From positions 1 through 43,702 of the forward strand of contig CACIPW010000006.1 of assembly GCA_902588635.1 (NCBI GenBank): a stretch of DNA of 43,702 nucleotides. The letters are read 5' to 3'. The position numbers and the translations under genes are program-made. Of the stretch, positions 1-14,911 are shown in pieces (the first letter of the stretch is position 1; the number at the start of each line of letters is the position of its first letter). The DNA is from an uncultured Pelagibacteraceae bacterium (GTDB lineage: Bacteria > Pseudomonadota > Alphaproteobacteria > Pelagibacterales > Pelagibacteraceae). Below the pieces are notes generated by a model that was not told the origin of the DNA, made no database searches, and worked only from the letters and a program-made list of their open reading frames with translations.

Positions 1-262
1 AATGAGTAAATGCTCTTGCTAATTTAAATATTTTAATTGGTTTAAGTCTTTGAATTTCTGAAGTAATTTTATTAAATCTATTTTTATTATTTTTATTTTT
101 AATGTTTGCTTTTGACAGCAATCTTATTCTCTCTACTAAATTAAAAAAACTTTCTCCCTCCTGTTTTTTTATCACTCTCCCTAAAATATTTCCTAAGTAT
201 CTAACATCGTCCCTTAAAGATTTTGTAGGTATTCTTTCGTAATAGAGATCTCTTTTTAGCAT
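1..262 (-). CDS. ppc: Phosphoenolpyruvate carboxylase, N-terminal fragment (continues off left edge)
   Basis: Own reverse-strand translation from ATG at 262: MLKRDLYYERIPTKSLRDDVRYLGNILGRVIKKQEGESFFNLVERIRLLSK...KIFKLARAFTH, matching the PEPC N-terminal pattern (LRDDVRxLGxxLGxVxxxQEGxxxFxLVExIR...ARAF). Not in the supplied ORF track because it is open at the edge. Confidence 0.85.
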   Translation of the reverse strand, partial: MLKRDLYYERIPTKSLRDDVRYLGNILGRVIKKQEGESFFNLVERIRLLSKANIKNKNNKNRFNKITSEIQRLKPIKIFKLARAFTH

Positions 263-288
263 TTGGTATAAACTATTTGCTTTATATT

Positions 289-1179
289 TTAAGTTTTACT
301 ATTTAAAGCTGACTTTACAGTTTCTCCCATAACTGATGGGTTTTTTGAAATAGTAACTCCACATTCCTTTAAGAGTTCAACTTTTTCGACTGCGCTTTCT
401 CCATAAGCGGAAACTATTGCTCCTGCATGCCCCATGACTCTTCCTTTTGGTGCTGTCAATCCTGCTATGTAAGCTATAATTGGTTTTTTCATGTTTTCTT
501 TTGCAAATTTTCCTGCTGCTACTTCTTGTGGCCCACCTATTTCACCAATCATCAAAACTGCTTCCGTTTCCTTATCTTCTTCAAATTTTTCTAAAATATC
601 TTTAAAAGAACTTCCGTTAATGGGATCACCTCCAATTCCTACGCTTGTTGAAACACCGATGTTTAAGTTTTTTAATTGTTGAGCAGCTTCATATCCAAGG
701 GTACCTGATCTTCCTATAATTCCTACTTTTCCTTCTTTGTATATATGTCCTGGCATAATGCCTAACATTGCTTTTCCAGGACTAATAACTCCTGCGCAAT
801 TTGGACCTACTAGAGTCATTTTTTCTTTTCTAGAATATCTTCTCATGTATCGTTTAATTTTAATCATGTCGTGCGAAGGTATTCCATCAACTATCGCAAC
901 GCACGTCTTAATACCAGCATCAGCTGCTTCCATTGCTGAGTCTGCAGCAAAAGCTGGTGGAACAAATAAAATTGAAGCTGTTGCACCAGTGTTTTTTACT
1001 GCTTCTTTAACAGTGTTAAACACTGGAAGGTTAAGATGTTTCAATCCACCTTTTCCAGGAGTAACTCCTCCAACTACATTTGACCCGTACTTTATCATTT
1101 CTTCAGCGTGGAAAGATCCCATTTTTCCAGTAAAACCTTGAACGATAATTTTGGTTTTTTTATCTATTAAAACTGACAT
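289..1179 (-). CDS. mtkB: Succinyl-CoA/malate-CoA ligase alpha subunit; probably malate thiokinase given its mcl/ppc neighbours
   Basis: SucD-family motifs (IIVQGFTGKMGSFHAEEMIKYG, VGPNCAGVISPGK, GRSGTLGYEAAQQL, GHAGAIVS). Malate specificity is inferred from context only. Confidence 0.75.
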   Translation of the reverse strand: MSVLIDKKTKIIVQGFTGKMGSFHAEEMIKYGSNVVGGVTPGKGGLKHLNLPVFNTVKEAVKNTGATASILFVPPAFAADSAMEAADAGIKTCVAIVDGIPSHDMIKIKRYMRRYSRKEKMTLVGPNCAGVISPGKAMLGIMPGHIYKEGKVGIIGRSGTLGYEAAQQLKNLNIGVSTSVGIGGDPINGSSFKDILEKFEEDKETEAVLMIGEIGGPQEVAAGKFAKENMKKPIIAYIAGLTAPKGRVMGHAGAIVSAYGESAVEKVELLKECGVTISKNPSVMGETVKSALNSKT

Positions 1180-1181
1180 GT

Positions 1182-2345
1182 TTATTTTCCTAAAGCTTTA
1201 ACTGCTTTGTTTGCAGCATCTTCTAAAGTATTAGCTTCTATATAATTTATTTTACTTTCTTTTAAAATTTTATTTCCTTTTTCTACGTTTGTTCCTGCTA
1301 ATCTAATCACTAAAGGAACTTTGATTTCTATTTTTTCCAATGCTTGCACTATACCCTCAGCAACCCAGTCACATCTGTTAATTCCTGCAAAAATATTAAC
1401 TAGTATAACCTTAACTTTTTCATCCATAGATATTAATTTAAAAGCTTTAACTATTTTTTCTGGAGTTGCTCCACCACCAACGTCCAAAAAATTTGCTGGT
1501 TCGCCTCCAGCCAACTTAATCATGTCCATAGATGCCATGGCTAGACCCGCACCATTAATTATATTTCCTATATTTCCTTCTAAACTTACATAATTAAGGC
1601 CTCTATCTGATGCATAAACTTCATTGGCATTTTCTTGAGTTTTATCTCTTAATTCCGAAACTTGATTTCTTCTAAATAAAGCATTGTTATCAAAACTCAT
1701 TTTGCAATCTAAAGCTAATATTTGATCTTGATTTGAAATAACCAATGGGTTCACTTCTACCATGGTTGCATCTAATTCGCTAAATGCTCTATAACATCCA
1801 ATAATTGTATCTGCCATTCTTGCTATTAACTTTGGTTCAATTTTTAACCCAAAAGCTATTTCTCTTGCTTGAAATTTTTGCATTCCAACAGCAACTTCAA
1901 TTTTAGATCTAATTATAGTTTCTGGTTTCTTCTTGGAAATTTCTTCAACACTCATTCCACCTTCAGTAGATGCCACTACCATTATGCTTTCTGAACTACG
2001 ATCAAATACTAGTCCTAAATATAATTCTTTTTTAATTTCTGTTGCTTCTTCTATATAGACTCTATTTGTAATTTTTCCTTCTGGACCTGTTTGATTTGTA
2101 ACCAGCTTTTTACCAAGAAGTTTGTCGGCTGCTTGAGCAACTTCTAGTACGCTATTACAAATAATTATACCGCCTGCTTTTCCTCGTGCTCCAGAATGAA
2201 CTTGTGCTTTAACAACCCATTTTGATCCTCCAAGTTCTCTTGCTTTATTTTCTGCATTCTCAGGACTGTAAACAATTCCTCCTCTTGGAATTGTAACTCC
2301 AAATCCTGAAAGTATTTTTTTTGCCTGATACTCGTGTATATCCAT
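1182..2345 (-). CDS. mtkA: Succinyl-CoA/malate-CoA ligase beta subunit; probably malate thiokinase
   Basis: SucC-family: MDIHEYQAKKILSGFGV, VVKAQVHSGARGKAGG, EVNPLVIS, FLDVGGGATPEK, NIFAGINRCDWVAEGI. Confidence 0.75.
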   Translation of the reverse strand: MDIHEYQAKKILSGFGVTIPRGGIVYSPENAENKARELGGSKWVVKAQVHSGARGKAGGIIICNSVLEVAQAADKLLGKKLVTNQTGPEGKITNRVYIEEATEIKKELYLGLVFDRSSESIMVVASTEGGMSVEEISKKKPETIIRSKIEVAVGMQKFQAREIAFGLKIEPKLIARMADTIIGCYRAFSELDATMVEVNPLVISNQDQILALDCKMSFDNNALFRRNQVSELRDKTQENANEVYASDRGLNYVSLEGNIGNIINGAGLAMASMDMIKLAGGEPANFLDVGGGATPEKIVKAFKLISMDEKVKVILVNIFAGINRCDWVAEGIVQALEKIEIKVPLVIRLAGTNVEKGNKILKESKINYIEANTLEDAANKAVKALGK

Positions 2346-2346
2346 T

Positions 2347-3285
2347 TTATTTACCTTGAATAAGTTTATCTATATTTACAATATTTTCTGCCATACGTGC
2401 TGATGCAGCATCAATCATTCTTCCATCTAGTTGTGCGGCACCTTTTCCTTCTTTTGCAGCCTTATCTAATTCTTCAATAATTCTTTTTGCTTTTTTTACT
2501 TCAGATTCTGGAGGAGAAAAAACTTTATTTGCTAGATCAATTTGTGATGGGTGTATTGCCCACTTACCTTCAATTCCAATTGCAGCTGCTCTTTTAGCTG
2601 ACGCTATATACGCATCAGGATCATTAAAATCTCCGAATGGTCCATCAATTGCTCTTAGCCCATACGCTCTACAAGTCATAACAAGTTGGGATAATCCATG
2701 ATGCCATTGATCACCTGGATAATCTGGATTTAATCCTCCTATCACAACAGTTCTAGCTCTTAAACTTGCAGCATAATCTGCTACACCAAAGTGAAGAGCT
2801 TCTAATCTGTCGCTAGACTTTGCAATTTCTTTTATATTTGACATTCCTAAAGCTGTTTCAATTAAACATTCAATTCCTATTTTATTTTTAATTTTTTTAT
2901 TAGTTTCAATTTGGGTTAATAAACAGTCGACCATATAAACATCACTAGCAGTGCCTGCTTTAGGCAATAATATTGTGTCTAACTTATCACCTGTTTCTTC
3001 TACGATCTCTACTAAGTCACGATACATGTAGTGAGTATCTAAGCTATTAATTCTTACAGAAATAGTTTTTCCTTTTTCACTCCAATTAATTTCTTTAAGT
3101 GCTTTAATAACATTCTGACGTGCGGGAATTTTGTCGTTTGGAGAAACAGCGTCTTCAAGATCTAAAAAAATATAATCAGCATTCGAATTTAAAGCTTTTT
3201 CGAACATTTTAGGTGATGATCCTGGTACAGCTAATTCACTTCTCTGCAACCTGGGCTTTGCTGGTTTGTAATATTTGTGGCTCAT
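2347..3285 (-). CDS. mcl: HpcH/HpaI aldolase / CitE family, likely L-malyl-CoA (beta-methylmalyl-CoA) lyase
   Basis: RSELAVPGSSPKMFEKALNSNADYIFLDLEDAVSPNDK, GIECLIETALGMSNIKEIA, HFGVADYAASL, KWAIHPSQI; gene order mcl-mtkA-mtkB-ppc. Confidence 0.82.
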   Translation of the reverse strand: MSHKYYKPAKPRLQRSELAVPGSSPKMFEKALNSNADYIFLDLEDAVSPNDKIPARQNVIKALKEINWSEKGKTISVRINSLDTHYMYRDLVEIVEETGDKLDTILLPKAGTASDVYMVDCLLTQIETNKKIKNKIGIECLIETALGMSNIKEIAKSSDRLEALHFGVADYAASLRARTVVIGGLNPDYPGDQWHHGLSQLVMTCRAYGLRAIDGPFGDFNDPDAYIASAKRAAAIGIEGKWAIHPSQIDLANKVFSPPESEVKKAKRIIEELDKAAKEGKGAAQLDGRMIDAASARMAENIVNIDKLIQGK

Positions 3286-3438
3286 AAATATAGTATAATT
3301 TTTTATACCAGGGGAAAAATACTATAATTAAGGTATTGTTTTTATATATAATTTTTAGATATTTAAAAAAAACTTTAATAAGGTTTTTGCTTTTGTTACT
3401 GATTCACCATGAAATTTACAGGGGGGACATTCTAAGTC
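3286..3438. promoter_or_regulatory. Divergent intergenic/promoter region between mcl and the FAD oxidoreductase, with nested inverted repeats
   Basis: ATAGTAT (3290-3296)...ATACTAT (3319-3325); ATACC (3305-3309)...GGTAT (3332-3336); direct repeat TATAATT at 3294-3300 and 3323-3329; candidate -10 TATAAT at 3323-3328 (+) and TATAAA-like box on minus at about 3302-3307. Confidence 0.45.
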
Positions 3439-4782
3439 ATGACTTTTCCAACTAAAGCTAAATATGTGATTATAGGTGCTGGAATTCATGGTTTAAGCAC
3501 TGCATGGCACTTAGCAGAAAAAATTAAAAAAAATGGAAACGGATCCAATAACGATATTGTTGTTATTGACAAAGGTGGAATAGCTTCTGGAGCAAGTGGA
3601 ATAGCTTGTGGAGTTGTGAGAAATAATTATTTTCAACCTGCCATGAGAGAGCTTATGGCACATAGTGTAAAAATTTGGGAAAGTGATCCAAAAAAATTTA
3701 GCTATCATCCTGTTGGTTACATGCAAATTAGCCCTGAAAGCATGAGAAAAGATGTGACTACAATTTATGAACAACAAAAAGCAATTGGTTATGAATCTAC
3801 ATTTATTGAAGGAGAAAAAGATTCTGCAGAGTATATGAAAAACATGTTTGATGATTGGCAAGCTAAAGGTATTACCTCTGTATTACACGAAAAAAGAGGT
3901 GGTTACGCAAATAACTCTGCGGCAATTTACGGAATAGCTGATAAAGCTGAAGCTTTAGGAGTAAAAATTATTACAGGAACAGAAGTTACAGGGTTTAAAA
4001 GAGGAAGTAACAGTAAAGCAGTAACGAGTGTTGAAACATCAAAAGGCACTATTGATTGTGAACAAGTAGTAGTTGGTGCTGGACCATGGGTAAAAACTTT
4101 TTGGGACAAACTTGAACTACCAAACAAAATTTCAATTAAAGATGATAAAGGAAATATGCATGATAATTTACCAATGTGGAAGTATTGGTTTTTAACAGAA
4201 GGAGTTTTAGGAGTTGATCCAAATTTTCAAAAAACTAACGATGGTAAAATGCCTCCAGTAATTCATGTTGATAGCGATGCGCCTTTGTATTCAGATGTAG
4301 ACAAGTCTTTAATAACAGACAAAATGTGGGGAATATATTATAAGCCAGATTTTAATTTTAATGGAGTTCAAGGTGGAGCTGCTCCTTATGAATTAAGTAA
4401 GCCAGCAGGCGAAGTTAAAGTTGATCCTTATGGAATTGATTCACCTGAGTATCAAACAACAGATGAATTTGCGCACATGTGGTGTTCAGCATTAGCTCAT
4501 TGCCAAAAAAGATTTGAAGGAAAAATTAATGTTTATCATAAAGGTCCATCAGGCGGATTAGGATGTTTTACTCCAGATTCATTTCCAATCTTCGATCGTT
4601 TTTGTGAAAATGTTTATTTTATTGCAGACTCAAATCATGGATACAAAATGATTGGTGTTGGAGAGTTGGTTGCTGATGAAATACTAGGCAAGGAAAAAGA
4701 TTTGTTAAAACCATTTAGATTCAACCGATACGAGAAAGGTGAACTGCACCCTACTTCGAGCAGCCCTTTCCCTTGGAGTTAA
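3439..4782 (+). CDS. DAO-family FAD-dependent oxidoreductase (sarcosine oxidase beta / N-methylglutamate dehydrogenase-like, stand-alone)
   Basis: N-terminal dinucleotide-binding motif KYVIIGAGIHGLSTAWHLAE, SGASGIACGVVRNNYF, VVVGAGPW, C-terminal YFIADSNHGYKMIGVGELVADEI; SD-like GGGGGGA upstream. Confidence 0.75.
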   Translation: MTFPTKAKYVIIGAGIHGLSTAWHLAEKIKKNGNGSNNDIVVIDKGGIASGASGIACGVVRNNYFQPAMRELMAHSVKIWESDPKKFSYHPVGYMQISPESMRKDVTTIYEQQKAIGYESTFIEGEKDSAEYMKNMFDDWQAKGITSVLHEKRGGYANNSAAIYGIADKAEALGVKIITGTEVTGFKRGSNSKAVTSVETSKGTIDCEQVVVGAGPWVKTFWDKLELPNKISIKDDKGNMHDNLPMWKYWFLTEGVLGVDPNFQKTNDGKMPPVIHVDSDAPLYSDVDKSLITDKMWGIYYKPDFNFNGVQGGAAPYELSKPAGEVKVDPYGIDSPEYQTTDEFAHMWCSALAHCQKRFEGKINVYHKGPSGGLGCFTPDSFPIFDRFCENVYFIADSNHGYKMIGVGELVADEILGKEKDLLKPFRFNRYEKGELHPTSSSPFPWS

Positions 4783-4854
4783 ACTAACTATGGTGGACAC
4801 AAATTAAAATATCAGCTAACTTTTATTTTATAAAAAATTTCTTTAAGGGGGAAA

Positions 4855-6324
4855 ATGACTGATCTAGAAAAACATGTAAATCGAACAGGTAGAGATAAAC
4901 TAGTAAAAAAAGTTAGAGAAAAAATTAACGAATTAGGAATTACATACATTTATTACCAATTTATATCTGTAACAGGACGTGTTGTTGGTAAAGGAATTCC
5001 CGCAGACCATTGGGAAAGAACTGCAGAAAAAGGTTTTCAATTAGTTTATGGATCTACTGCCAACTTATTTGTAGACAGACACAAAAATTATATCGGTTAC
5101 GGCCCTGAAGCTATGGAACTTGTTGGTATACCTGACCCCGAAACTTTCTGTCAATTACCTTGGGACAAAAGGGTTGGAAGAGTTTTTGTTACATGTTTTA
5201 GGAATAGAGAAGAAAGACAAAATCCAGGTGGTCATTTAACTTCTGATTGCAGAGGTAACTTGAAAATTTTTATGGATGAATTTGAGAAAAAACATGGTCT
5301 AGAATTAAGAGTTGGAACAGAACCTGAAATGATGTGGTTGACAAAAAATCCTGACGGAACTCCTACTGGAGCAGGTTTTTCTAAACCATACTGTTATCAC
5401 ATTGATCAATTTGAATCATTGAGGCCTGTTTTCATGAAAGTAATTGAGTACGCTTCAGCCATGGGTTTAGATATGATCCAAGGTGACCATGAAGATGCAC
5501 CTGGACAATTAGAATTAAACTGGACATATGATAATGTTTTAAGAAACGCTGATAGACTTTCTACTTATAGACAAATTTGTGCTCAAGTAGCAAGAGAACA
5601 TAATTTAATAGCATGCTTTATGACAAAACCATTTATGGGTGTGTCTGCAAGTGGTTGCCATACAAACATGTCTTTATGGAAAGGCGGAAAGGTTGTAACA
5701 AACAAATTAGGTAATAAAAAATTACCTGGGGTAGAAGAAGTGTTTGGATATGTGCAGGGAGGCACAAATACTTTTATGCCTGATACTAAAGATATGCAGT
5801 TACCAGGTAAAATTGGTTTACAGTCCATTGCTGGAATAATGGAACATTTGCCTGCTTTAACTGCTTTAGGATCTTCAACAGTTAATTCTTACAGAAGACT
5901 TTGGGATCAAGGTTTCTGGGCTCCAGTTTATGCTGATTGGGGATATCAAAACAGAACTTGTGGCCTAAGAGTATCAGCTCCTGGAAGATTTGAGTATAGA
6001 TCAGTTGACTCTATGCATAATCCATATCTTTTAGGTGCAGCTTTATTAAAAGCGTGTGATCATGGTATTTCAGAAAAACTAACACCTTCTAAGCCTGAAT
6101 CTAGAAGCATGTATGAAGCTAAAAAAGCAGGTAAAGATGTTAAAAAACTTCCATTGAGTCTGGGAGAAGCTCTAGATAGATTATCTGAAGATGAAGTAAT
6201 TAAATCAGCAATGCCTGATGAAATGTATAAAGTTTTTCATTGGTATAAAAATGATGAATGGGAAAAATTCTTAGGTGCTACCACCCAATGGGATCTTGAT
6301 ACATACTTAGATTGTTTACCGTAG
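4855..6324 (+). CDS. Glutamine-synthetase-fold ligase, divergent (candidate gamma-glutamylamide synthetase)
   Basis: GS motifs GTEPEMMW, GDHEDAPGQLELNW, SASGCHTNMSLW, TVNSYRRLWDQGFWAPVYADWGYQNRT, PGRFEYRSVD. The GYEAP-type Glu is replaced by Trp (GFWAP). Confidence 0.8.
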   Translation: MTDLEKHVNRTGRDKLVKKVREKINELGITYIYYQFISVTGRVVGKGIPADHWERTAEKGFQLVYGSTANLFVDRHKNYIGYGPEAMELVGIPDPETFCQLPWDKRVGRVFVTCFRNREERQNPGGHLTSDCRGNLKIFMDEFEKKHGLELRVGTEPEMMWLTKNPDGTPTGAGFSKPYCYHIDQFESLRPVFMKVIEYASAMGLDMIQGDHEDAPGQLELNWTYDNVLRNADRLSTYRQICAQVAREHNLIACFMTKPFMGVSASGCHTNMSLWKGGKVVTNKLGNKKLPGVEEVFGYVQGGTNTFMPDTKDMQLPGKIGLQSIAGIMEHLPALTALGSSTVNSYRRLWDQGFWAPVYADWGYQNRTCGLRVSAPGRFEYRSVDSMHNPYLLGAALLKACDHGISEKLTPSKPESRSMYEAKKAGKDVKKLPLSLGEALDRLSEDEVIKSAMPDEMYKVFHWYKNDEWEKFLGATTQWDLDTYLDCLP

Positions 6325-6354
6325 TAATAATAGAAACAAAAAGGGAATAAATAT

Positions 6355-7296
6355 ATGTGTGGAATAGCAGGATTAATTCATAGAGGAAAATCTTCAAACG
6401 TAGGTGAAGAATTACAAAATATGCTTCAAGCCTTAAAGCATAGAGGACCTGACTCAACTGGATATGCCCTTTATGCCAATAACGATGGTCAAAACTTTAT
6501 ATTGAGATTTAAAGTGGGTGAAAACGTTGGAGAAGGTAGTACATCTGTAAATGAAGATGAAAGTGTTTATGACGAAAGAAAAAAAATTGTAGATAAAAAA
6601 CTTTCAGAATTAGGTGCTCCTATTATTAAGGAAGAAAAATTAACTCCCTATTCCTATAGATATGAAGTTCAATATGGCAAAGATCTAATGTGGTTTTCAC
6701 AAGCAATTGAAAGTATTGAAAATGTTGAGATACTTTCTATTGGAAAATCTCTTGAACTTATAAAAGATCTAGGTGACGCTACTGCTGTATCGGAAAGATA
6801 TGGATTAAATAAAGTGCAAGGAACTCATGGAATAGGTCATGCAAGAATGGCGACTGAGTCTGGTGTGGATATTAAGTCAGCACATCCTTTTTGGGGTTAT
6901 CCTTTTGCGGATGTTTCTGTGGTTCATAATGGCCAATTAACAAATTATTGGAACAATAGAAGAGCACTTGAAAATAAAGGAATGCGTTTTATGTCTGAAT
7001 GCGATTCAGAATTAATTGCAGTTTTCCTTGCTGAAAAAATGAGAAATGGAGCAACCTTAGAAGAAGGAATGAGAGAAAGTCTTACAGGACTTGATGGTGT
7101 TTTCACTTATTTTGTTGCAACAAAAGATTCTTTAGGAATGGCAAAAGATACAATGGCTGCAAAACCATTAGTATTATACGAGTCAGATGATTTAGTAGCT
7201 ATGGGATCAGAAGAAATTGCAATTAGATCTATCCTTCCGCAAGAAATAGATACTTATGATCCTTTTGATGGAGAGGTTAAAGTATGGCAAACCTAA
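6355..7296 (+). CDS. mgsA: Class II glutamine amidotransferase-like subunit of N-methylglutamate synthase (MgsA/GlxB-like)
   Basis: MCGIAGLIHRG N-terminal nucleophile Cys2, LKHRGPDSTGYALY, GIGHARMATES, VVHNGQLTNY; followed by mgsB and mgsC homologues. Confidence 0.8.
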   Translation: MCGIAGLIHRGKSSNVGEELQNMLQALKHRGPDSTGYALYANNDGQNFILRFKVGENVGEGSTSVNEDESVYDERKKIVDKKLSELGAPIIKEEKLTPYSYRYEVQYGKDLMWFSQAIESIENVEILSIGKSLELIKDLGDATAVSERYGLNKVQGTHGIGHARMATESGVDIKSAHPFWGYPFADVSVVHNGQLTNYWNNRRALENKGMRFMSECDSELIAVFLAEKMRNGATLEEGMRESLTGLDGVFTYFVATKDSLGMAKDTMAAKPLVLYESDDLVAMGSEEIAIRSILPQEIDTYDPFDGEVKVWQT

Positions 7297-8138
7297 AAAC
7301 AGCTGAGAAAAAAACAAAAGCCCAATCAATGGGAATGCATACTGAAGTTTTAACAGGAAAAACTCAACAAAAATTTTTTAACCCAGACGAAGCAGAAAAT
7401 TTCTTCTATTGGGGAACTCATGATGTTGATTTTAATAAAAGAACTGAATTAGATGTTAAAGATTTGGATTGCAAGCAAGCAAACGAGAAAATTGATATAC
7501 TTATGAGTGAAGGTTACGGAACAATTGTAATTAAAAATCCACAAGGAAAACACAGTTTAGGTGTTGGAATATTAAACAAACTTAATTTAATTTTTGAAGG
7601 AAGTTTAGGTTATTTTGGTGTTGGCGCAATAGATGGTCCAATAGTTACAGTTAAAGGTCGTGTGGGTTGGTCCTGTGCTGAAAATATGATGGCAGGAAAA
7701 GTTGTTATAGAAAAAAACGCTGGATCATGTTTCGGCGCAGCTATTAGAGGTGGCGATTTAATTTGCAAAGGAAGTGTAGGAGCAAGAACTGGAATTGACC
7801 AAAAAGGTGGCTCTATAATTGTTGGTGGAGACGCTGGTGCATTTACAGGTTTCATGATGCAAAGAGGAAGAATTGTTATTTTGGGAGATGTAGGAATTAA
7901 CCTTGGAGACTCCATGTATGATGGAACAATATATGTGGGTGGAAAAATTGGTTCATTTGGTAGTGACGCAGTGGAATCGCCTATAACTAAAAGTGATATA
8001 GATTGGTTGACTAGAAAACTTAAAGTAGCAGAAATTGGAAGCAATGTTGATTTATCAAAAATGACTAAGGTTGTTGCTGGTAAAAAACTTTGGAACTATG
8101 ACGCTCTAGAACCAACAGAGAGAAAAGGAGCTATATAA
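7284..8138 (+). CDS. mgsB: GXGXG-domain subunit of N-methylglutamate synthase (MgsB/GlxC-like)
   Basis: Glutamate-synthase alpha C-terminal-type beta-helix repeats (GYFGVGAIDGPIVTVKGRVGWSCAENM, GSCFGAAIRGGDLICKGSVGARTGIDQKGGSIIVGGDAG); overlaps mgsA end. Confidence 0.8.
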   Translation: MANLKTAEKKTKAQSMGMHTEVLTGKTQQKFFNPDEAENFFYWGTHDVDFNKRTELDVKDLDCKQANEKIDILMSEGYGTIVIKNPQGKHSLGVGILNKLNLIFEGSLGYFGVGAIDGPIVTVKGRVGWSCAENMMAGKVVIEKNAGSCFGAAIRGGDLICKGSVGARTGIDQKGGSIIVGGDAGAFTGFMMQRGRIVILGDVGINLGDSMYDGTIYVGGKIGSFGSDAVESPITKSDIDWLTRKLKVAEIGSNVDLSKMTKVVAGKKLWNYDALEPTERKGAI

Positions 8139-9508
8139 TGGCAAAAAAGAAAAATGGAAATGGTAAAAGCGAGTTTGCAAAAAGAAATAAAAGCTTACTA
8201 GGTTATAATTCTATTTTTACTCCAGAAGTAATTGACGATATTCACATTAAAGCCCAGTTAGGAAGATACAGAATGCGTGGAATGGCATTGATGAAAAAAA
8301 TTCCAACATTTGATGACTTGGTATTTTTACCAGGAACTTTAACAAGATTTGTAATTGAAGGTTATAGAGAAAAATGTGAAACAAAAACTGTGATAGGTCC
8401 AGGATGTGAAAATCCAATCGAACTAGATATTCCAGTTTATATAACAGGTATGAGTTTTGGTGCTCTTTCTTATGAAGCTAAAACTGCTCTAGCACGAGGT
8501 GCAACAATGGCTGGAAGTGCTACTTGTTCTGGTGAAGGTGGAATGATTCCTGATGAAAGAAGATATTCTGAAAAATGGTACTATCAATGTATTCAATCTA
8601 GATATGGATTTAATCCTCATCACGCTCAACTTGCTGACGCGATAGAAGTATTTATAGGACAAGGACAAAAAGTTGGAATGGGAGGACATTTGATGGGTCA
8701 AAAAGTTACTGATCAAGTAGCTGAAATGAGATCTTTACCTGCGGGAATTGACCAAAGATCACCTGCTAGACATCCGGACTGGCTAGGGCCAGATGATTTA
8801 TCTTTAAAAGTTAAAGAACTTAGAGAATTAACTAAAAACAAAATACCGATTCAATTAAAACTTGGAGCAGCTAAAGTTTATGATGATGTTCGTATGGCTG
8901 CGAAGTGTGAACCAGACTCTATTTTTTTAGATGGAATGGAAGGTTCAACTGGTGCAGGACCTCACATAGCTGCTGCAAATACTGGTATTCCAGGTATTGC
9001 TGGCATAAGAGAGGCCAGAAGAGCTTTGGACGATGTTGGTAAAACAGGAAAAGTAACATTAATTTATGCTGGTGGTGTTAGGGATGGTGCTGATATGGCG
9101 AAAGCTTTGGCGCTAGGTGCTGATGCAATAGCAATTGGAACAGGAGCATTAATGGCTTTGAACTGTAATAAAGAAATTCCAGAATCTAATTTCGAAAAAG
9201 AAATGGGAGTGCCTGCAGGTCATTGTTATCACTGTCATACTGGTCGTTGTCCAGTTGGTGTTGCAACTCAAGATCCAAAATTAAGAAAAAGATTAAATCC
9301 GGATGATGCTGCATTAAGAGTTTACAATTATTTACACTCAATGACTTTAGAAGCACAATTGTTAGCAAGAGCATGCGGTAAAACAAATATACATTCTTTA
9401 GAGCCAGAGGATATGGCAGCATTAACTATGGAAGCTTCTGCGTTAGCAAAAGTTCCTTTATCAGGTACAAATCATACTGTAGGAGTTGACGACTTTCATA
9501 AAATTTAG
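8138..9508 (+). CDS. mgsC: FMN/Fe-S glutamate synthase domain subunit of N-methylglutamate synthase (MgsC/GlxD-like)
   Basis: ITGMSFGALSYEAKTALARGATMAGSATCSGEGGM, IQLKLGAAKV, DGMEGSTGAGP, LALGADAIAIGTGAL, CYHCHTGRCPVGVATQDPKLRKRL; stop/start overlap TAATG with mgsB. Confidence 0.85.
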   Translation: MAKKKNGNGKSEFAKRNKSLLGYNSIFTPEVIDDIHIKAQLGRYRMRGMALMKKIPTFDDLVFLPGTLTRFVIEGYREKCETKTVIGPGCENPIELDIPVYITGMSFGALSYEAKTALARGATMAGSATCSGEGGMIPDERRYSEKWYYQCIQSRYGFNPHHAQLADAIEVFIGQGQKVGMGGHLMGQKVTDQVAEMRSLPAGIDQRSPARHPDWLGPDDLSLKVKELRELTKNKIPIQLKLGAAKVYDDVRMAAKCEPDSIFLDGMEGSTGAGPHIAAANTGIPGIAGIREARRALDDVGKTGKVTLIYAGGVRDGADMAKALALGADAIAIGTGALMALNCNKEIPESNFEKEMGVPAGHCYHCHTGRCPVGVATQDPKLRKRLNPDDAALRVYNYLHSMTLEAQLLARACGKTNIHSLEPEDMAALTMEASALAKVPLSGTNHTVGVDDFHKI

Positions 9509-9516
9509 GGATACTT

Positions 9517-9927
9517 ATGGCAAAAAAAAAGAAAAATAAAAAAAAAAGCATTAAAGAAGTTAAAGGTCAGCTAGGGAAAAAGAAAGAAACAGCTAGAGAA
9601 AAAATGATTGGTCAGACTATTGGTTATAGATACGACGTAAACTTATTGCCTGATTATAAAAAACTTACTCCATTTCTAAAAAAATATATTGAACATATGG
9701 GTTGGGATGATCTTAACTGGCTAGAAGATGTTCATATGGGTTATGAAGAAGACAGGCCAGCTGTATTTGACAGAAATGCTAATGGCTGGGTAACAATTCC
9801 TAAAAAAATTAAATTACCTGATAACCAACAAGATAGAGATATGATTGCAAGAGAACTGCTAGTTAAATTTCAAATGTCGCCAAACCATCCATTGGTTGAT
9901 CTTAAAAAAGCTTATTTAAAATTTTAA
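9517..9927 (+). CDS. Uncharacterised 136-aa protein, Lys-rich N-terminus, in mgs-amt operon
   Basis: ORF immediately after mgsC (8-nt gap); conserved-looking soluble core (MGWDDLNWLEDVHMGYEEDRPAVFDRNANGWV); no family recognised. Confidence 0.7.
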   Translation: MAKKKKNKKKSIKEVKGQLGKKKETAREKMIGQTIGYRYDVNLLPDYKKLTPFLKKYIEHMGWDDLNWLEDVHMGYEEDRPAVFDRNANGWVTIPKKIKLPDNQQDRDMIARELLVKFQMSPNHPLVDLKKAYLKF

Positions 9928-10082
9928 TTAAATTACTCGCCTCATAGTTGAATATAAATTTAGTAAGTTAAAATTTATGTTGGTTTTCCTGTACTTATAA
10001 TAAATATATCTAAAAAAAACGGTTGTTCTCCCTGTGGCTAAATCTATCATGAGCACATTAAAATAAATATGGGAGGAAGATT

Positions 10083-11483
10083 ATGACTGATCAATTAGGC
10101 GCCCTTACAACTATATTTACAGAATTTTACTACTGGATAACAGTGGTACTTATGTTTTTAATTCACGTAGGTTTCTGTATGTATGAGGTAGGCGCATCAC
10201 GTTATAAACACCACCAACATACTTTAATGAAAAACACAATGTTAATACCGCTAGTAACGGTAACTTGGTTTTTCTTTGGTTGGTGGATATACTGGGCATT
10301 TCCAACAGGACCAGGACTAGCACCTTCAATTATGAATGAAAGTGCCGCACTAATAACAGATGAATCAACATTTAGTGCTAAGTGGTATGTACCTAATAGC
10401 AACCTTATGGCTATTAATTTAGGAGATCATATCTCTGGAGTATTCTGGGCTGCTTTCTTACTATTCTCATGGACAGCTGCATCAATCGTTTCTGGTGCTG
10501 TAATTGAAAGAATTACAACATTTGCTTTTGGAATTTTAGCAATAGCAATTGGATCAGTATTCTGGACAATAGACGCTGCTTGGGGATGGCACTTTGATGG
10601 TTGGATGCTTAAATTATTAGGGTATCATGATGCTTATGCATCTGGAGTAATTCACGCAATTGCCGGAGGATTTGCTTTGGGTATTCTTATGGTTTTAGGA
10701 CCAAGAATAGGTAAATTTTCATCAAGTGGTGAACCAAGAAATATAGGACCAAGAAATCCTTGGCTAGTAACAGTTGGATTATTTTTAATTTATACTGGCT
10801 TCTGGGGATTCTATGCGGCATGTAATATACCGATATTTGATCTTGGACCTGAGTATGGAATGGAAGGCGTAACTTACTGGACAGCAACGAACATATATGT
10901 AACCCCTACTACACTTAGTGGTATTACAATGAACTTCTTGATGTCATTATCGGGTGGTTTATTAGCTGGATATGTGGTCGCTAAAGGTGATCCTTTTTGG
11001 ACATACTCAAGTGGACTAGCAGGTATCATCTGTGCTTCTGCAGGAAATGACTTATATCATCCAATTCAAGCAATGATCATTGGTGGAATTGGTGTTGTTA
11101 TTGCATACAATCTACATTACTGGGTTGAACGTACGTTCAAAATAGACGATGCAGTTGGAGCGGTAGCAGTACATGGTTATGCAGGATTTGCAGGACTTGT
11201 AATTTGCGGTTTTGTTCTAAATGGCTATCCATCATCTGGATACAGTGTTGGAGCTATGTGGGATGGAGCAACATACGCATCAATTAATCCATTAGGAATG
11301 TTTATTGGTGCATTAATTATGTTCTTTGTTCTTGGATTAATACCGGGCTGGATTATCGCTAAAGTACTTCATGGAATGGGTAAACTTAGAATTCCAAGAG
11401 AAGTAGAAATAGCAGGTCTAGACTATAACATGATGGAAGCTTCTAGAAATGATGAAAAAGCAGTTTCCTCATCAACTAGGTAA
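10083..11483 (+). CDS. amt: Divergent Amt/Mep/Rh-family ammonium (or methylammonium) transporter
   Basis: Hydrophobic about 11-TM protein; Amt landmarks DAYASGVIHAIAGG (cf. DFAGGTVVHxxAG) and AVHGYAG, retaining both pore His and the -8 Asp; SGAVIERI; SD GGGAGGA. Confidence 0.83.
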   Translation: MTDQLGALTTIFTEFYYWITVVLMFLIHVGFCMYEVGASRYKHHQHTLMKNTMLIPLVTVTWFFFGWWIYWAFPTGPGLAPSIMNESAALITDESTFSAKWYVPNSNLMAINLGDHISGVFWAAFLLFSWTAASIVSGAVIERITTFAFGILAIAIGSVFWTIDAAWGWHFDGWMLKLLGYHDAYASGVIHAIAGGFALGILMVLGPRIGKFSSSGEPRNIGPRNPWLVTVGLFLIYTGFWGFYAACNIPIFDLGPEYGMEGVTYWTATNIYVTPTTLSGITMNFLMSLSGGLLAGYVVAKGDPFWTYSSGLAGIICASAGNDLYHPIQAMIIGGIGVVIAYNLHYWVERTFKIDDAVGAVAVHGYAGFAGLVICGFVLNGYPSSGYSVGAMWDGATYASINPLGMFIGALIMFFVLGLIPGWIIAKVLHGMGKLRIPREVEIAGLDYNMMEASRNDEKAVSSSTR

Positions 11484-11494
11484 AGGAGATAAAT

Positions 11495-11719
11495 ATGGCT
11501 ACAGTAACAAACTGGATCGATCATCTCAGCGCTAAAGAAGTTGCCGGAGCAGTTTATCCGGGAGCTGGATCTATTGAGACTATGCTAGTGATAATTGGAG
11601 TGGTTCTATGGATAGGATGGCATGTAATAACTGCCATGTCTGAAGACGAAGAACTAACAAAATTAGCTAGAAAAAGACATAGTGCAAACGATCATAAAAG
11701 CAATATTACCGATTGGTAA
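11495..11719 (+). CDS. Small single-TM protein (74 aa) immediately downstream of amt
   Basis: ORF 11 nt after amt with AGGAG SD; TM ETMLVIIGVVLWIGWHVITAM; charged C-tail; followed by a strong terminator. Confidence 0.7.
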   Translation: MATVTNWIDHLSAKEVAGAVYPGAGSIETMLVIIGVVLWIGWHVITAMSEDEELTKLARKRHSANDHKSNITDW

Positions 11720-11733
11720 TTAATTAAATTAAT

Positions 11734-11765
11734 TTAAGGGCGTATTCTCTAAAATGCGCCCTTAA
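11734..11765 (+). terminator. Intrinsic terminator after the amt/74-aa operon
   Basis: TTAAGGGCGTATTCTCTAAAATGCGCCCTTAA: 9 perfect bp (extendable through one G-U to about 13), then GTTTT. Confidence 0.85.
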
Positions 11766-11786
11766 GTTTTAAAATCATAATATCAA

Positions 11787-11969
11787 ATGACTGATTTTAG
11801 AGATAGAAAACTTTCAGAAAACATAGAGGAAGATAAAAATAAAACTCCAAGTAAAATGGCTAGATTGGCTTGGCCTAAGGCTAAATACGGAGTAATTTTA
11901 GCTATAATTATAATTATAGTTGTGAATGCAATATTTTATTGGGAAACAATTATTTCATTTTTTAAATAA
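11787..11969 (+). CDS. Small single-TM protein (60 aa)
   Basis: ORF with TM YGVILAIIIIIVVNAIFYWETIISFF; 21 nt after the terminator stem. Confidence 0.5.
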   Translation: MTDFRDRKLSENIEEDKNKTPSKMARLAWPKAKYGVILAIIIIIVVNAIFYWETIISFFK

Positions 11970-11988
11970 AAATATGCTAGATTAATTT

Positions 11989-13314
11989 ATGGCAAAAAAT
12001 TTATCCTCTATAGCAAAATTAAAAAAAATTAAATATTTCCTAATTAGTTTTGTTGATTTGTTTGGTGTACTAAGATCAAAATTAGTACCTGCTCAAGCTA
12101 TCAGTGAAATGCAAAAAAATGGAGCTGGATTTGCGGGATTTGCTACATGGTTAGATATGACACCAGCTGACACAGACATGTTCGCTATTCCTGACCCTGA
12201 TAGCTTAATTCAACTACCTTGGAATAAAGAGGTTGGTTGGTTAGCTTCGGATTTATGGATGGGTGGTAAACCGGTAAAGGCATCTCCAAGAGTAATGTTA
12301 AAAAATCAAATAGAAAAGCTTTCAAAAAAAGATTTAGTTATGAAATCTGGTGTCGAATGTGAATATTTTTTAATTTCACCTGATGGCTCAAAAATTGCAG
12401 ACGAACGAGATACTCAATCTAAACCTTGTTATGACCAATCAGCATTAATGAGAAGATATGATTTAATAAAAGAAATATGTGATAGCATGATTGAACTTGG
12501 ATGGAATCCTTATCAAAATGATCACGAGGACGCTAACGGTCAATTTGAGATGAATTGGGATTATTCTGATTGCTTAACTACAGCAGACAGACATACTTTT
12601 TTTAAATTTATGGTTAAATCTTTAGCTGAAAAACATGGTTTAAGAGCTACTTTTATGCCTAAACCTTTTCAAAATTTAACTGGAAATGGATGTCATGCTC
12701 ATATTTCTTTATGGAAAGACAAACAAAACAAATTTTTAGAAACTGGTGATAGGTTAGGTTTAAGTAAAACTGCTTATAATTTTTTAGGTGGAATTATGAA
12801 ATTGGCTCAACCGCTTGCAGCATTTTTTAATCCAACGGTAAATAGTTATAGAAGAATAAATGCACCTCCAACTAAATCAGGAGCTTCTTGGTCTCCAAGT
12901 AGTATTTCGTATTCTGGAAATAATAGAACTCACATGATCAGAGTACCAGATCCAGGAAGATTTGAATTAAGGTTGATGGATGGATCATCAAACCCTTATC
13001 TACTTCAAGCAGGTGTAATTGCTGCTGGCTTGGATGGTCTTAACAATAGAACTGATCCAGGAGAACCTCTAACTTGTAATATGTATACAGATTATAAAAA
13101 CTATTCACATCTTAAAAAATTACCTGATGAAATTGAAGAATCAATTAAAGAACTTGAAGACAACAAAGAACTTAAGGAAGCTTTTGGAGAAGATGTAATA
13201 AATAGCTATATAAAATTAAAAAAAGAAGAACTTGATGAATTTAATAGACAAGAATCGTTTAATAAAAAAGATCCAATTACTGAATGGGAAAGAAAAAATA
13301 CCCTTGATTGTTAA
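11989..13314 (+). CDS. gmaS: GS-III-like / gamma-glutamylmethylamide synthetase-like ligase (second GS-fold paralogue)
   Basis: YFLISFVDLFGVLRSKLVPA, KSGVECEYFLISPDG, NDHEDANGQFEMNW, TGNGCHAHISLW, VNSYRRINAPPTKSGASWSPSSISYSGNNRTHMIRVPDPGRFELRLMDGSSNPYLLQA, typical of the GmaS/GlnT group. Confidence 0.8.
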   Translation: MAKNLSSIAKLKKIKYFLISFVDLFGVLRSKLVPAQAISEMQKNGAGFAGFATWLDMTPADTDMFAIPDPDSLIQLPWNKEVGWLASDLWMGGKPVKASPRVMLKNQIEKLSKKDLVMKSGVECEYFLISPDGSKIADERDTQSKPCYDQSALMRRYDLIKEICDSMIELGWNPYQNDHEDANGQFEMNWDYSDCLTTADRHTFFKFMVKSLAEKHGLRATFMPKPFQNLTGNGCHAHISLWKDKQNKFLETGDRLGLSKTAYNFLGGIMKLAQPLAAFFNPTVNSYRRINAPPTKSGASWSPSSISYSGNNRTHMIRVPDPGRFELRLMDGSSNPYLLQAGVIAAGLDGLNNRTDPGEPLTCNMYTDYKNYSHLKKLPDEIEESIKELEDNKELKEAFGEDVINSYIKLKKEELDEFNRQESFNKKDPITEWERKNTLDC

Positions 13315-13319
13315 TATAA

Positions 13320-14447
13320 ATGAAAACAATCAATCAAGATAATATTTGGTCAATTTCTTCATTTTTAGAGAATAAAAAATATAACTTTAGCAAAGAAAGT
13401 ATTTTACATGTACTTCCTGCGAAAGATATAGATGAAGCTTACAAAACAATTTCAAAATGGAATAATTATTCGCCAACTCCATTAATACATTTAAATAAAC
13501 TTACTGAAAAATTAAAATTTAACAAAATATTTTATAAAGATGAATCAAATAGGTTCAATTTAAAATCGTTTAAAGCTTTAGGTGGAGCTTATGCGGTAGA
13601 AAAAGTAACAAAAGGAAATAAAGATATGGTTGTTTCTACTGCTACAGCAGGGAATCATGGAAGATCAGTTGCATGGGGATCAAAAAAATTAGGACTAAAA
13701 TGTAAAATTTTTATCAGTGAATATGTAAGTGAGTTTAGAGCAAAAGTAATGCGAAGCTTTGGTGCAGATGTAATAAGAGTCAAAGGAAATTATGATAACT
13801 CCTTAAAAGAGTGTATTAAACAATCAAAACAAAATAATTGGCAAATCGTCCAGGACGTTGCATGGCATGATTATAAGTTGGTACCGAAATTAACTATGGC
13901 AGGATATTCTGTAATGATGAAAGAAATTTCGGAACAGATTAAAGATGAAAAAATTTCACACGTAATACTTCAAGCAGGGGTCGGTGGAATGGCAGCTGCA
14001 ATGGTAGCTGGTATAGCTAGATATTTGGATAATGTTCCTAAAATTATTGTAGTAGAGCCTGAAAGTGCCGCATGCGTTTTAGAAAGTATTAAAACTGGCA
14101 AAATAGAAAAAATTTCTATTAAAAAAGAAAGTTTAATGGGTGGAATGTCTTGTGATGAAGTGTCTTTAGTTCCTTGGGAAATATTAAAAAATTCTACAAG
14201 TCATTGTGTAACTGTTTCTGACAATTGTATTTCTAAAACTGTTAAATCTCTTGCAAATTGTGAATTTAGTGATGAAAAAATTGTTGGAGGAGAATGTTCA
14301 ACTCCAGGAATTATAAGTTTAGTTGGAATGAGCAAAGATACTAAGATTAAAAAAAAAATAAATCTTAATGAAAATTCGAATGTATTATTATTTGGTTGCG
14401 AAGGTGACGCAGATGAAGAGCTATACCAAAAATTATTAACCGCATAA
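13320..14447 (+). CDS. Diaminopropionate ammonia-lyase-like PLP fold-type II enzyme
   Basis: SPTPLIHLNKLTEKLKFNKIFYKDESNRFNLKSFKALGGAYAV, STATAGNHGRSVAWGSKKLGL, WQIVQDVAWHDYKLVPKLTMAGYSVMMKEI, QAGVGGMAAAM. Confidence 0.78.
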   Translation: MKTINQDNIWSISSFLENKKYNFSKESILHVLPAKDIDEAYKTISKWNNYSPTPLIHLNKLTEKLKFNKIFYKDESNRFNLKSFKALGGAYAVEKVTKGNKDMVVSTATAGNHGRSVAWGSKKLGLKCKIFISEYVSEFRAKVMRSFGADVIRVKGNYDNSLKECIKQSKQNNWQIVQDVAWHDYKLVPKLTMAGYSVMMKEISEQIKDEKISHVILQAGVGGMAAAMVAGIARYLDNVPKIIVVEPESAACVLESIKTGKIEKISIKKESLMGGMSCDEVSLVPWEILKNSTSHCVTVSDNCISKTVKSLANCEFSDEKIVGGECSTPGIISLVGMSKDTKIKKKINLNENSNVLLFGCEGDADEELYQKLLTA

Positions 14448-14449
14448 AA

Positions 14450-14911
14450 ATGCGAAAAATATATAAAAAAAAAACAGAAAATGTAGATTTTTATAAAATC
14501 TTTAAACCTGAACTTACACCTAAAAAAATGTTAGAATTAGGAGTGTTTGGTGGTGCATACTTTGGATCAAATACAAAAGAATATCCAAGATCCTGGTTCA
14601 AAAATGCAAAATTAAGCAAAAAATTTGATGTAAAGTTAAATAGATTTAAAATTAAAGCAGGTTTATCAAGAAAAGCTTGGCAAGATAAAGGCTGGATTTT
14701 TAAACAAGACCCACTTGGATGGTTTCAGTGGTACTGTAGATTTTCAAATGGAAGACGCAATCCAAAGATTGACCAAATTCAAATCAAAAGATGGAAGAAT
14801 TTTATTAGACATGTGAAAGCAATAAAAAAAAACTGCGAAGAAGGAGATATGAGTTGTAGAAGAAGACAGAGACAAGCTATACTTCAATGGGCCTATAATC
14901 CTTTTATTTAG
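14450..14911 (+). CDS. Uncharacterised 153-aa protein with GGAYFG...DPLGWFQWYCRFSNGRR signature
   Basis: ORF 2 nt after the DAPAL-like gene; strongly patterned aromatic/basic core. Confidence 0.7.
   Translation: MRKIYKKKTENVDFYKIFKPELTPKKMLELGVFGGAYFGSNTKEYPRSWFKNAKLSKKFDVKLNRFKIKAGLSRKAWQDKGWIFKQDPLGWFQWYCRFSNGRRNPKIDQIQIKRWKNFIRHVKAIKKNCEEGDMSCRRRQRQAILQWAYNPFI

Follow-up and report, generated by a model that had tools for sequence, protein, structure and literature searches.

A candidate dimethylamine pathway and an accessory malate-CoA ligase cassette, head to head in a SAR11 amine island

The window analysed here is the whole of contig CACIPW010000006.1 (G000:C6; 43,702 nucleotides), part of an 841-kb, 61% complete genome of an uncultured Pelagibacteraceae bacterium. 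As an earlier note made from the DNA letters alone had described, two divergent operons start from a 153-bp gap (3286-3438): mcl, mtkA and mtkB (malyl-CoA lyase and malate-CoA ligase) run leftward, and a flavin adenine dinucleotide (FAD) oxidoreductase gene, a ligase gene, three GltB-module genes, amt and a second ligase gene run rightward. We propose, with a probability of roughly one half, that these are two distinct modules, the right one a sister pathway for dimethylamine and the left one an accessory malate cassette for glyoxylate supply. The more general proposal, to which we give slightly less than even odds, is that SAR11 and many other Alphaproteobacteria degrade dimethylamine by a monooxygenase-independent ligation route via gamma-glutamyl-dimethylamide and N,N-dimethylglutamate, encoded by the block FAD-GS489-mgsA'B'C'-p136. 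In SAR11, the ocean's most abundant bacteria, this block is probably the missing step between trimethylamine N-oxide (TMAO) demethylase (Tdm) and gamma-glutamylmethylamide synthetase (GmaS). The proposal builds on five observations, from which we infer what each subunit does and which substrate and intermediates are involved: gene content, clade separation, a conserved active site, association with Tdm, and complementarity with the dimethylamine monooxygenase DmmDABC (Dmm). Dimethylamine in particular is proposed because of the last two, the adjacency of tdm and the published absence of dmm from SAR11.

A GmaS-like ligase and the block around it

The earlier note had taken the first ligase for GmaS, a name that belongs to the second. 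The latter matches the solved GmaS of Rhodovulum (Table 1), falls within the GmaS clade, keeps D177, E186 and R312, has W300 in place of the glutamate flap of glutamine synthetase and lacks Asp50; judged by these features, it is a canonical GmaS. The first ligase, GS489, is only about 30% identical to GmaS, scores 289.5 bits against TIGR03105 (cut-off 469.6) and forms a clade of its own outside GmaS, which comprises 30 of 30 sequences with a support of 0.95. Residues K30, Y147, Q175, D177, E179, E186, N188, W300 and R312, whose counterparts have established catalytic or amine-pocket roles in the Rhodovulum enzyme RhGmaS (PMC7948447), recur in every one of the 15 homologues compared; Asp50, which binds ammonium in glutamine synthetase, is lost, and Ala and Val stand at the positions of RhGmaS G231 and A48. 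This full set of GmaS residues, together with the loss of Asp50, points to an amine ligase rather than a glutamine synthetase, and we therefore class GS489 as a predicted amine ligase that is neither glutamine synthetase nor GmaS proper. A more distant relative (53% identical) lies among Puu-like genes on a Paracoccus plasmid (L073), which shows that the family related to GS489 is wider and includes other roles in amine metabolism. A function of GS489 itself in polyamine gamma-glutamylation was considered and set aside, the SAR11 polyamine study being silent on GS489 in such a role (PMC8437039).

The three genes that follow had been labelled mgsABC (6355-9508), and this label does not hold either. 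They form a paralogous set, MgsA'B'C', whose MgsC' shares 50% identity with Aminobacter MgsC, as against 73-84% for the canonical MgsC of other SAR11, and the two MgsC types are reciprocally monophyletic. Canonical mgsABC was not found in the window, where it would be expected between amt and gmaS, whereas three other genomes (G300, G330 and G030) carry both sets within one island. The order in G300 and G330 is tdm, p116, FAD, GS489, mgsA'B'C', p136, amt, two microproteins, mgsABC, gmaS and a pyridoxal phosphate (PLP) lyase gene. Among 27 sampled congeners, the MgsC' paralogue occurs in 17 and canonical mgsC in 6. MgdABCD, the N-methylglutamate dehydrogenase, was not found in the window, and no genome-wide search for it was made.

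The order FAD-GS489-mgsA'B'C'-p136 is kept in families across the class, with the FAD gene first in nearly all loci. The closing protein, p136, is 64-99% identical across the class; profile searches gave no family match, and its structure prediction is too weak for use (predicted local distance difference test score, 44). The FAD gene of the window is itself unusual, being only 71-73% identical to those of congeners (83-99% for the other genes of the block) and falling outside the SAR11 FAD clade in the tree. It adjoins the cassette insertion and has the appearance of a replacement. In one genome, G292, all that is left of the GS489 block is a deletion scar (L087 9183-9366) in which two short pieces of GS489 survive, alongside an intact canonical mgsABC-gmaS.

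Under the proposed route, TMAO demethylase, encoded immediately upstream in other SAR11, would supply the dimethylamine. GS489 would couple it to the gamma-carboxyl group of glutamate at the expense of ATP, giving gamma-glutamyl-dimethylamide, and MgsA'B'C' would transfer the amine to 2-oxoglutarate, giving N,N-dimethylglutamate. The FAD enzyme, a putative N,N-dimethylglutamate oxidase, would then strip one methyl group as a one-carbon (C1) unit, and the resulting N-methylglutamate would pass to the ordinary N-methylglutamate enzymes. Monomethylamine would be handled by GmaS. In G194, the block lies beside N-methylglutamate dehydrogenase genes, an arrangement that fits a first demethylation by the FAD enzyme and a second by MgdABCD.

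Association with TMAO demethylase and complementarity with Dmm

Our main survey covered 289 alphaproteobacterial genomes, many of them incomplete, of which 29 contain the block (scored by GS489), 23 a full TMAO demethylase and 37 PF11927, a domain that is a marker for Dmm and not proof of it. GS489 occurs in 18 of the 23 Tdm-positive genomes as against 11 of the 266 Tdm-negative ones (p = 5e-17). Tdm-positive genomes that lack the block all carry PF11927 (5/5), compared with 1 of the 18 that have it, and there as a weak hit (p = 2e-4). With the two weak PF11927 hits removed, the counts are 18:0 versus 1:4 (p = 6e-4); genomes not being independent, the comparison was repeated by family, giving 9:0 versus 0:3 across 12 families (p = 0.005). 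In G252, PF11927 lies inside a cluster resembling dmmD-A-B-C, near tdm, gmaS and mgsABC. The gene tdm directly adjoins the block in SAR11 and in families f66 and f76, and lies within about 14 kb of it in f38. In SAR11, tdm is followed by a protein of 115-116 residues without a family match (for example, L237 15724-16071 and L086 1264-1614). A GcvT-like SAR11 gene that had seemed to be a split TMAO demethylase was rejected because its locus started inside a full-length tdm.

Two other substrates have to be weighed against dimethylamine. The block could be an isozyme pathway for monomethylamine in which the FAD enzyme replaces the four-subunit N-methylglutamate dehydrogenase, as might be expected from the retention of the whole GmaS amine pocket in GS489 and from G207, a 99% complete genome with gmaS and no canonical mgsC. 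We regard this as unlikely, though the stronger of the two, since it explains neither the complementarity with Dmm and the link to Tdm nor the presence of both gene sets side by side in G300, G330 and G030. Less probable still is that the block acts on another amine, such as ethylamine or another small secondary amine, and tracks Tdm only because both mark marine amine users. As this explanation would have it, both Tdm and the Dmm marker are absent from eight sampled block-carrying genomes, all of them 80% complete or more; direct adjacency to tdm in three families and an exclusion of Dmm that is specific to dimethylamine speak against it.

Several observations count against dimethylamine as the substrate. 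The window's own genome aside, 10 of the 29 GS489-positive genomes have no full Tdm match, although two are weak cases (one is 64% complete and one has a ligase that is 61% identical). The weak PF11927 hit mentioned above occurs in a genome with both Tdm and GS489 (G030), and the evidence for Dmm in G259, which is among the five cases, is likewise a weak hit. The known GmaS acts poorly on secondary amines (PMC7948447). Finally, gmaS is kept and no canonical mgsC was found in the window, G207, G297 and G342, so MgsA'B'C' may also serve monomethylamine.

If the dimethylamine proposal is correct, a published conclusion changes. All SAR11 have been reported to lack dmmDABC (PMC5520151), and it is on this gap that the claimed metabolic bottleneck at dimethylamine, with escape of the compound to the air and aerosol formation, is founded (PMC5520151). 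Strain HTCC1062 grows with TMAO, and a DmmDABC isoenzyme has been suggested (PMC8918994). Were the block the missing step, the bottleneck would have been overstated, since dmm was all that marker-gene surveys had counted. As HTCC1062, which is in culture, has the block genes (SAR11_1304-1309), the idea is open to immediate testing.

The malate-CoA ligase cassette and glyoxylate

The earlier note's identification of the leftward genes is well founded. MtkA exceeds its equivalog cut-off and Mcl matches the solved lyase 5ugr over residues 4-304 (Table 1), so that, by sequence, Mcl-MtkA-MtkB is a genuine malate-CoA ligase and malyl-CoA lyase. The suspicion that the two ligase subunits are merely SucCD of the tricarboxylic acid cycle fails because the same genome has a separate sucC (G000:C1:69049; 48% identical to mtkA). 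The nearest named relatives of the window's Mcl are Pelagibacteraceae single cells and metagenome-assembled genomes, on which we base the assignment of the window to SAR11. The fourth gene of the reported run, ppc, encodes phosphoenolpyruvate (PEP) carboxylase and is indeed present and leftward, but it amounts only to the 87 N-terminal codons, cut by the contig end; the fragment shares 96-99% identity with the N-terminal part of Ppc from G308 and G341. We do not count ppc as part of the cassette, as it adjoins it only in the window, G308, G341, L237 and L187 (a divergent copy) and is a separate gene elsewhere; Ppc occurs in 41 of 62 sampled congeners.

The cassette is accessory, being found in 19 of 61 genomes of the genus. 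In most other carriers, it is flanked by hisE and a HIT gene, at an unrelated site in the his operon. In the window, G308, G311, G341, L187, L192, L196 and L237, and probably in L191, it occupies the FAD side of the amine island and, in every contig long enough to show it, has p116 or tdm as its neighbour at the other end. Adjacency of the cassette to amine genes thus recurs in other SAR11, and the two sites are interleaved on the cassette tree, which indicates that the cassette entered, or left, the amine island more than once. Such repeated arrival or loss may be either a habit of recombination or a sign of use beside amine genes; mcl and MgsC' showed no association (13/19 versus 4/8, p = 0.41).

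In the earlier note's model, the first ligase and MgsABC capture methylamine, the methyl group enters serine, and Mtk, Mcl and Ppc close the serine cycle with net C1 assimilation. Its proposed coupling of amine and serine-cycle modules has real precedent, in that Aminobacter plasmids carry sga-mcl-mtkAB-hpr-gck beside mgsABC-gmaS-mgd, so the linkage exists in a methylotroph in complete form, and both the recurrent adjacency and the interleaved sites agree with it. In SAR11 it is weakened by the missing association of mcl with MgsC', by amine genes that are not canonical mgsABC and by the his-operon location of the cassette in most other carriers. Closure of the cycle, moreover, is not supported: serine-glyoxylate aminotransferase (SGA) was found in 0 of 19 mcl-positive genomes by a query that was positive in G207 and G030, and glycerate 2-kinase in 0 of 28 genomes searched, a count without a positive control, with the window's own genome being only 61% complete. 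No net C1 assimilation was inferred for HTCC1062 by Sun et al. (PMC3160333), although mcl is not shown in that strain. With SGA and glycerate kinase not found, a canonical serine cycle is unlikely, and the full model with net assimilation is the least probable explanation we considered. The nearest approach is L187 (4429-11514, a Pelagibacter genome), in which an aspartate/serine-glyoxylate-type (BhcA/SGA-type) aminotransferase gene lies between mcl and FAD; with mcl-mtkA-mtkB and the divergent ppc, this TMAO island holds the fullest set resembling C1 assimilation seen here in SAR11.

A modified cycle is somewhat less improbable, though still doubtful. Glyoxylate would be converted to glycine by another transaminase, combined with a C1 unit to serine, which would be deaminated to pyruvate and carried on to PEP, followed by Ppc, malate, Mtk and Mcl. 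The same enzyme set has been engineered in Escherichia coli with Mtk, Mcl, Agt and serine dehydratase, bypassing SGA, hydroxypyruvate reductase and glycerate kinase (PMC6162302), and the frequency of Ppc among congeners and a PLP ammonia-lyase in the window would suit it. That lyase, however, belongs to the diaminopropionate family.

We consider glyoxylate supply for glycine and serine likelier than a canonical serine cycle. The left module would lead from PEP and CO2 through oxaloacetate, malate and malyl-CoA to glyoxylate and acetyl-CoA, and the glyoxylate would feed glycine and, with methylene-folate from amines, serine. This role is preferred because SAR11 are often glycine/serine auxotrophs, a need that a glyoxylate transaminase has been proposed to relieve offshore (PMC12636525). 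The cassette would then be a possible internal source of glyoxylate, and hence of glycine, in a group known for this auxotrophy. Replacement of malate synthase by Mcl and Mtk was rejected, since malate synthase is present in most mcl-positive genomes; the same co-occurrence means that a futile cycle must be avoided, which tells against glyoxylate supply. Apart from tRNA, no Rfam match was obtained that would suggest riboswitch control of the mcl operon. In the open-access literature, to which the search was confined, we found nothing on an mcl cassette in SAR11.

The earlier note had passed over p136, the two membrane microproteins between amt and gmaS and the PLP lyase after gmaS (Table 1). 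The PLP lyase lies directly 3' of gmaS in the SAR11 loci long enough to show the position and is only 60-64% identical between congeners, as against about 80% for its neighbours. In G311, the first microprotein after amt (the 74-residue type) is duplicated.

Table 1 Features of the two divergent modules in the window
Feature	Position	Strand	Evidence or remark
ppc (PEP carboxylase), N-terminal 87 codons only	1..262	-	PF00311 positions 1-70 match
mtkB, malate-CoA ligase alpha subunit	289..1179	-	SucD-family equivalog; 68% to Aminobacter MtkB
mtkA, malate-CoA ligase beta subunit	1182..2345	-	NF010647 628.6 bits, cut-off 604
mcl, L-malyl-CoA lyase	2347..3285	-	385 bits to solved 5ugr; 67% to Aminobacter Mcl
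Divergent intergenic region, 153 bp	3286..3438	.	sequence; compared with G330, G300 and G207
Single-chain FAD amine oxidoreductase (DAO / sarcosine oxidase beta-like)	3439..4782	+	PF01266; TIGR01373 below cut-off
GS489, GmaS-like glutamate:amine ligase (predicted), own clade, 489 residues	4855..6324	+	residues 15/15; tree support 0.95
mgsA', class II glutamine amidotransferase	6355..7296	+	PF13522/PF13537; 36% to canonical MgsA
mgsB', GXGXG domain	7284..8138	+	PF01493; 34% to canonical MgsB
mgsC', flavin mononucleotide (FMN) glutamate-synthase domain	8138..9508	+	PF01645; 50% to canonical MgsC
p136, conserved 136-residue protein	9517..9927	+	always after mgsC'; SAR11_1309
amt, ammonium transporter family	10083..11483	+	TIGR00836 176 bits, below cut-off
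74-residue membrane microprotein	11495..11719	+	kept after amt in SAR11
Terminator-like hairpin between the two microproteins	11736..11763	.	sequence
60-residue membrane microprotein	11787..11969	+	canonical mgsABC comes next in other SAR11, missing here
gmaS, canonical gamma-glutamylmethylamide synthetase	11989..13314	+	585 bits to 7cql; TIGR03105 621.8 bits, cut-off 469.6
PLP lyase, diaminopropionate ammonia-lyase family	13320..14447	+	NF006058 392.9 bits, cut-off 276

Counterparts in HTCC1062 and in known pathways

The published locus SAR11_1302-1316 of HTCC1062 comprises opuAC (1302), an aminomethyltransferase (1303), an oxidase (1304), glnT (1305), a hypothetical protein (1309), amt (1310), glxBCD (1313-1315) and a second glnT (1316) (PMC3160333, PMC2704228, PMC5069961), an order that, by locus number, matches that of the SAR11 islands. 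Mapped by order and annotation, the FAD-to-p136 block (3439-9927) corresponds to SAR11_1304-1309 and the island from tdm to gmaS to SAR11_1303 to 1316, with FAD equivalent to SAR11_1304, GS489 to SAR11_1305 and p136 to SAR11_1309. The window differs in having no equivalents of SAR11_1313-1315 and in carrying the malate cassette where 1303 would adjoin 1304; in the other SAR11 compared (G330, G300 and G207), tdm-p116 lies upstream of FAD in place of the 153-bp gap. The papers found assign no function to SAR11_1305-1309, and in the open-access literature that was searched we came across no mention of SAR11_1304-1309 acting on dimethylamine.

The left module resembles the Aminobacter serine-cycle cluster on pAM01 (sga-mcl-mtkAB-hpr-gck) in the order of mcl, mtkA and mtkB and in the sequences of their products (63-68% identity), and differs from it in having ppc after mtkB. 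The right module shares with the N-methylglutamate pathway of Methyloversatilis, Ruegeria and Aminobacter (GmaS, MgsABC and MgdABCD) a GmaS-type ligase with the same catalytic residues and a three-gene GltB-like synthase followed by a flavin amine oxidoreductase. By contrast, its ligase and MgsC' fall in separate clades, p136 is always present, and the operon has a single-chain FAD oxidase instead of a four-subunit dehydrogenase. The block and DmmDABC, a haem-dependent N-demethylase, are not homologous but would, as proposed, carry out the same step after Tdm, in which dimethylamine yields a monomethyl product. Dmm, with its haem subunit (PF11927), is an oxygenase, whereas the block route would need ATP and glutamate. 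In Tdm-positive genomes, the two replace each other.

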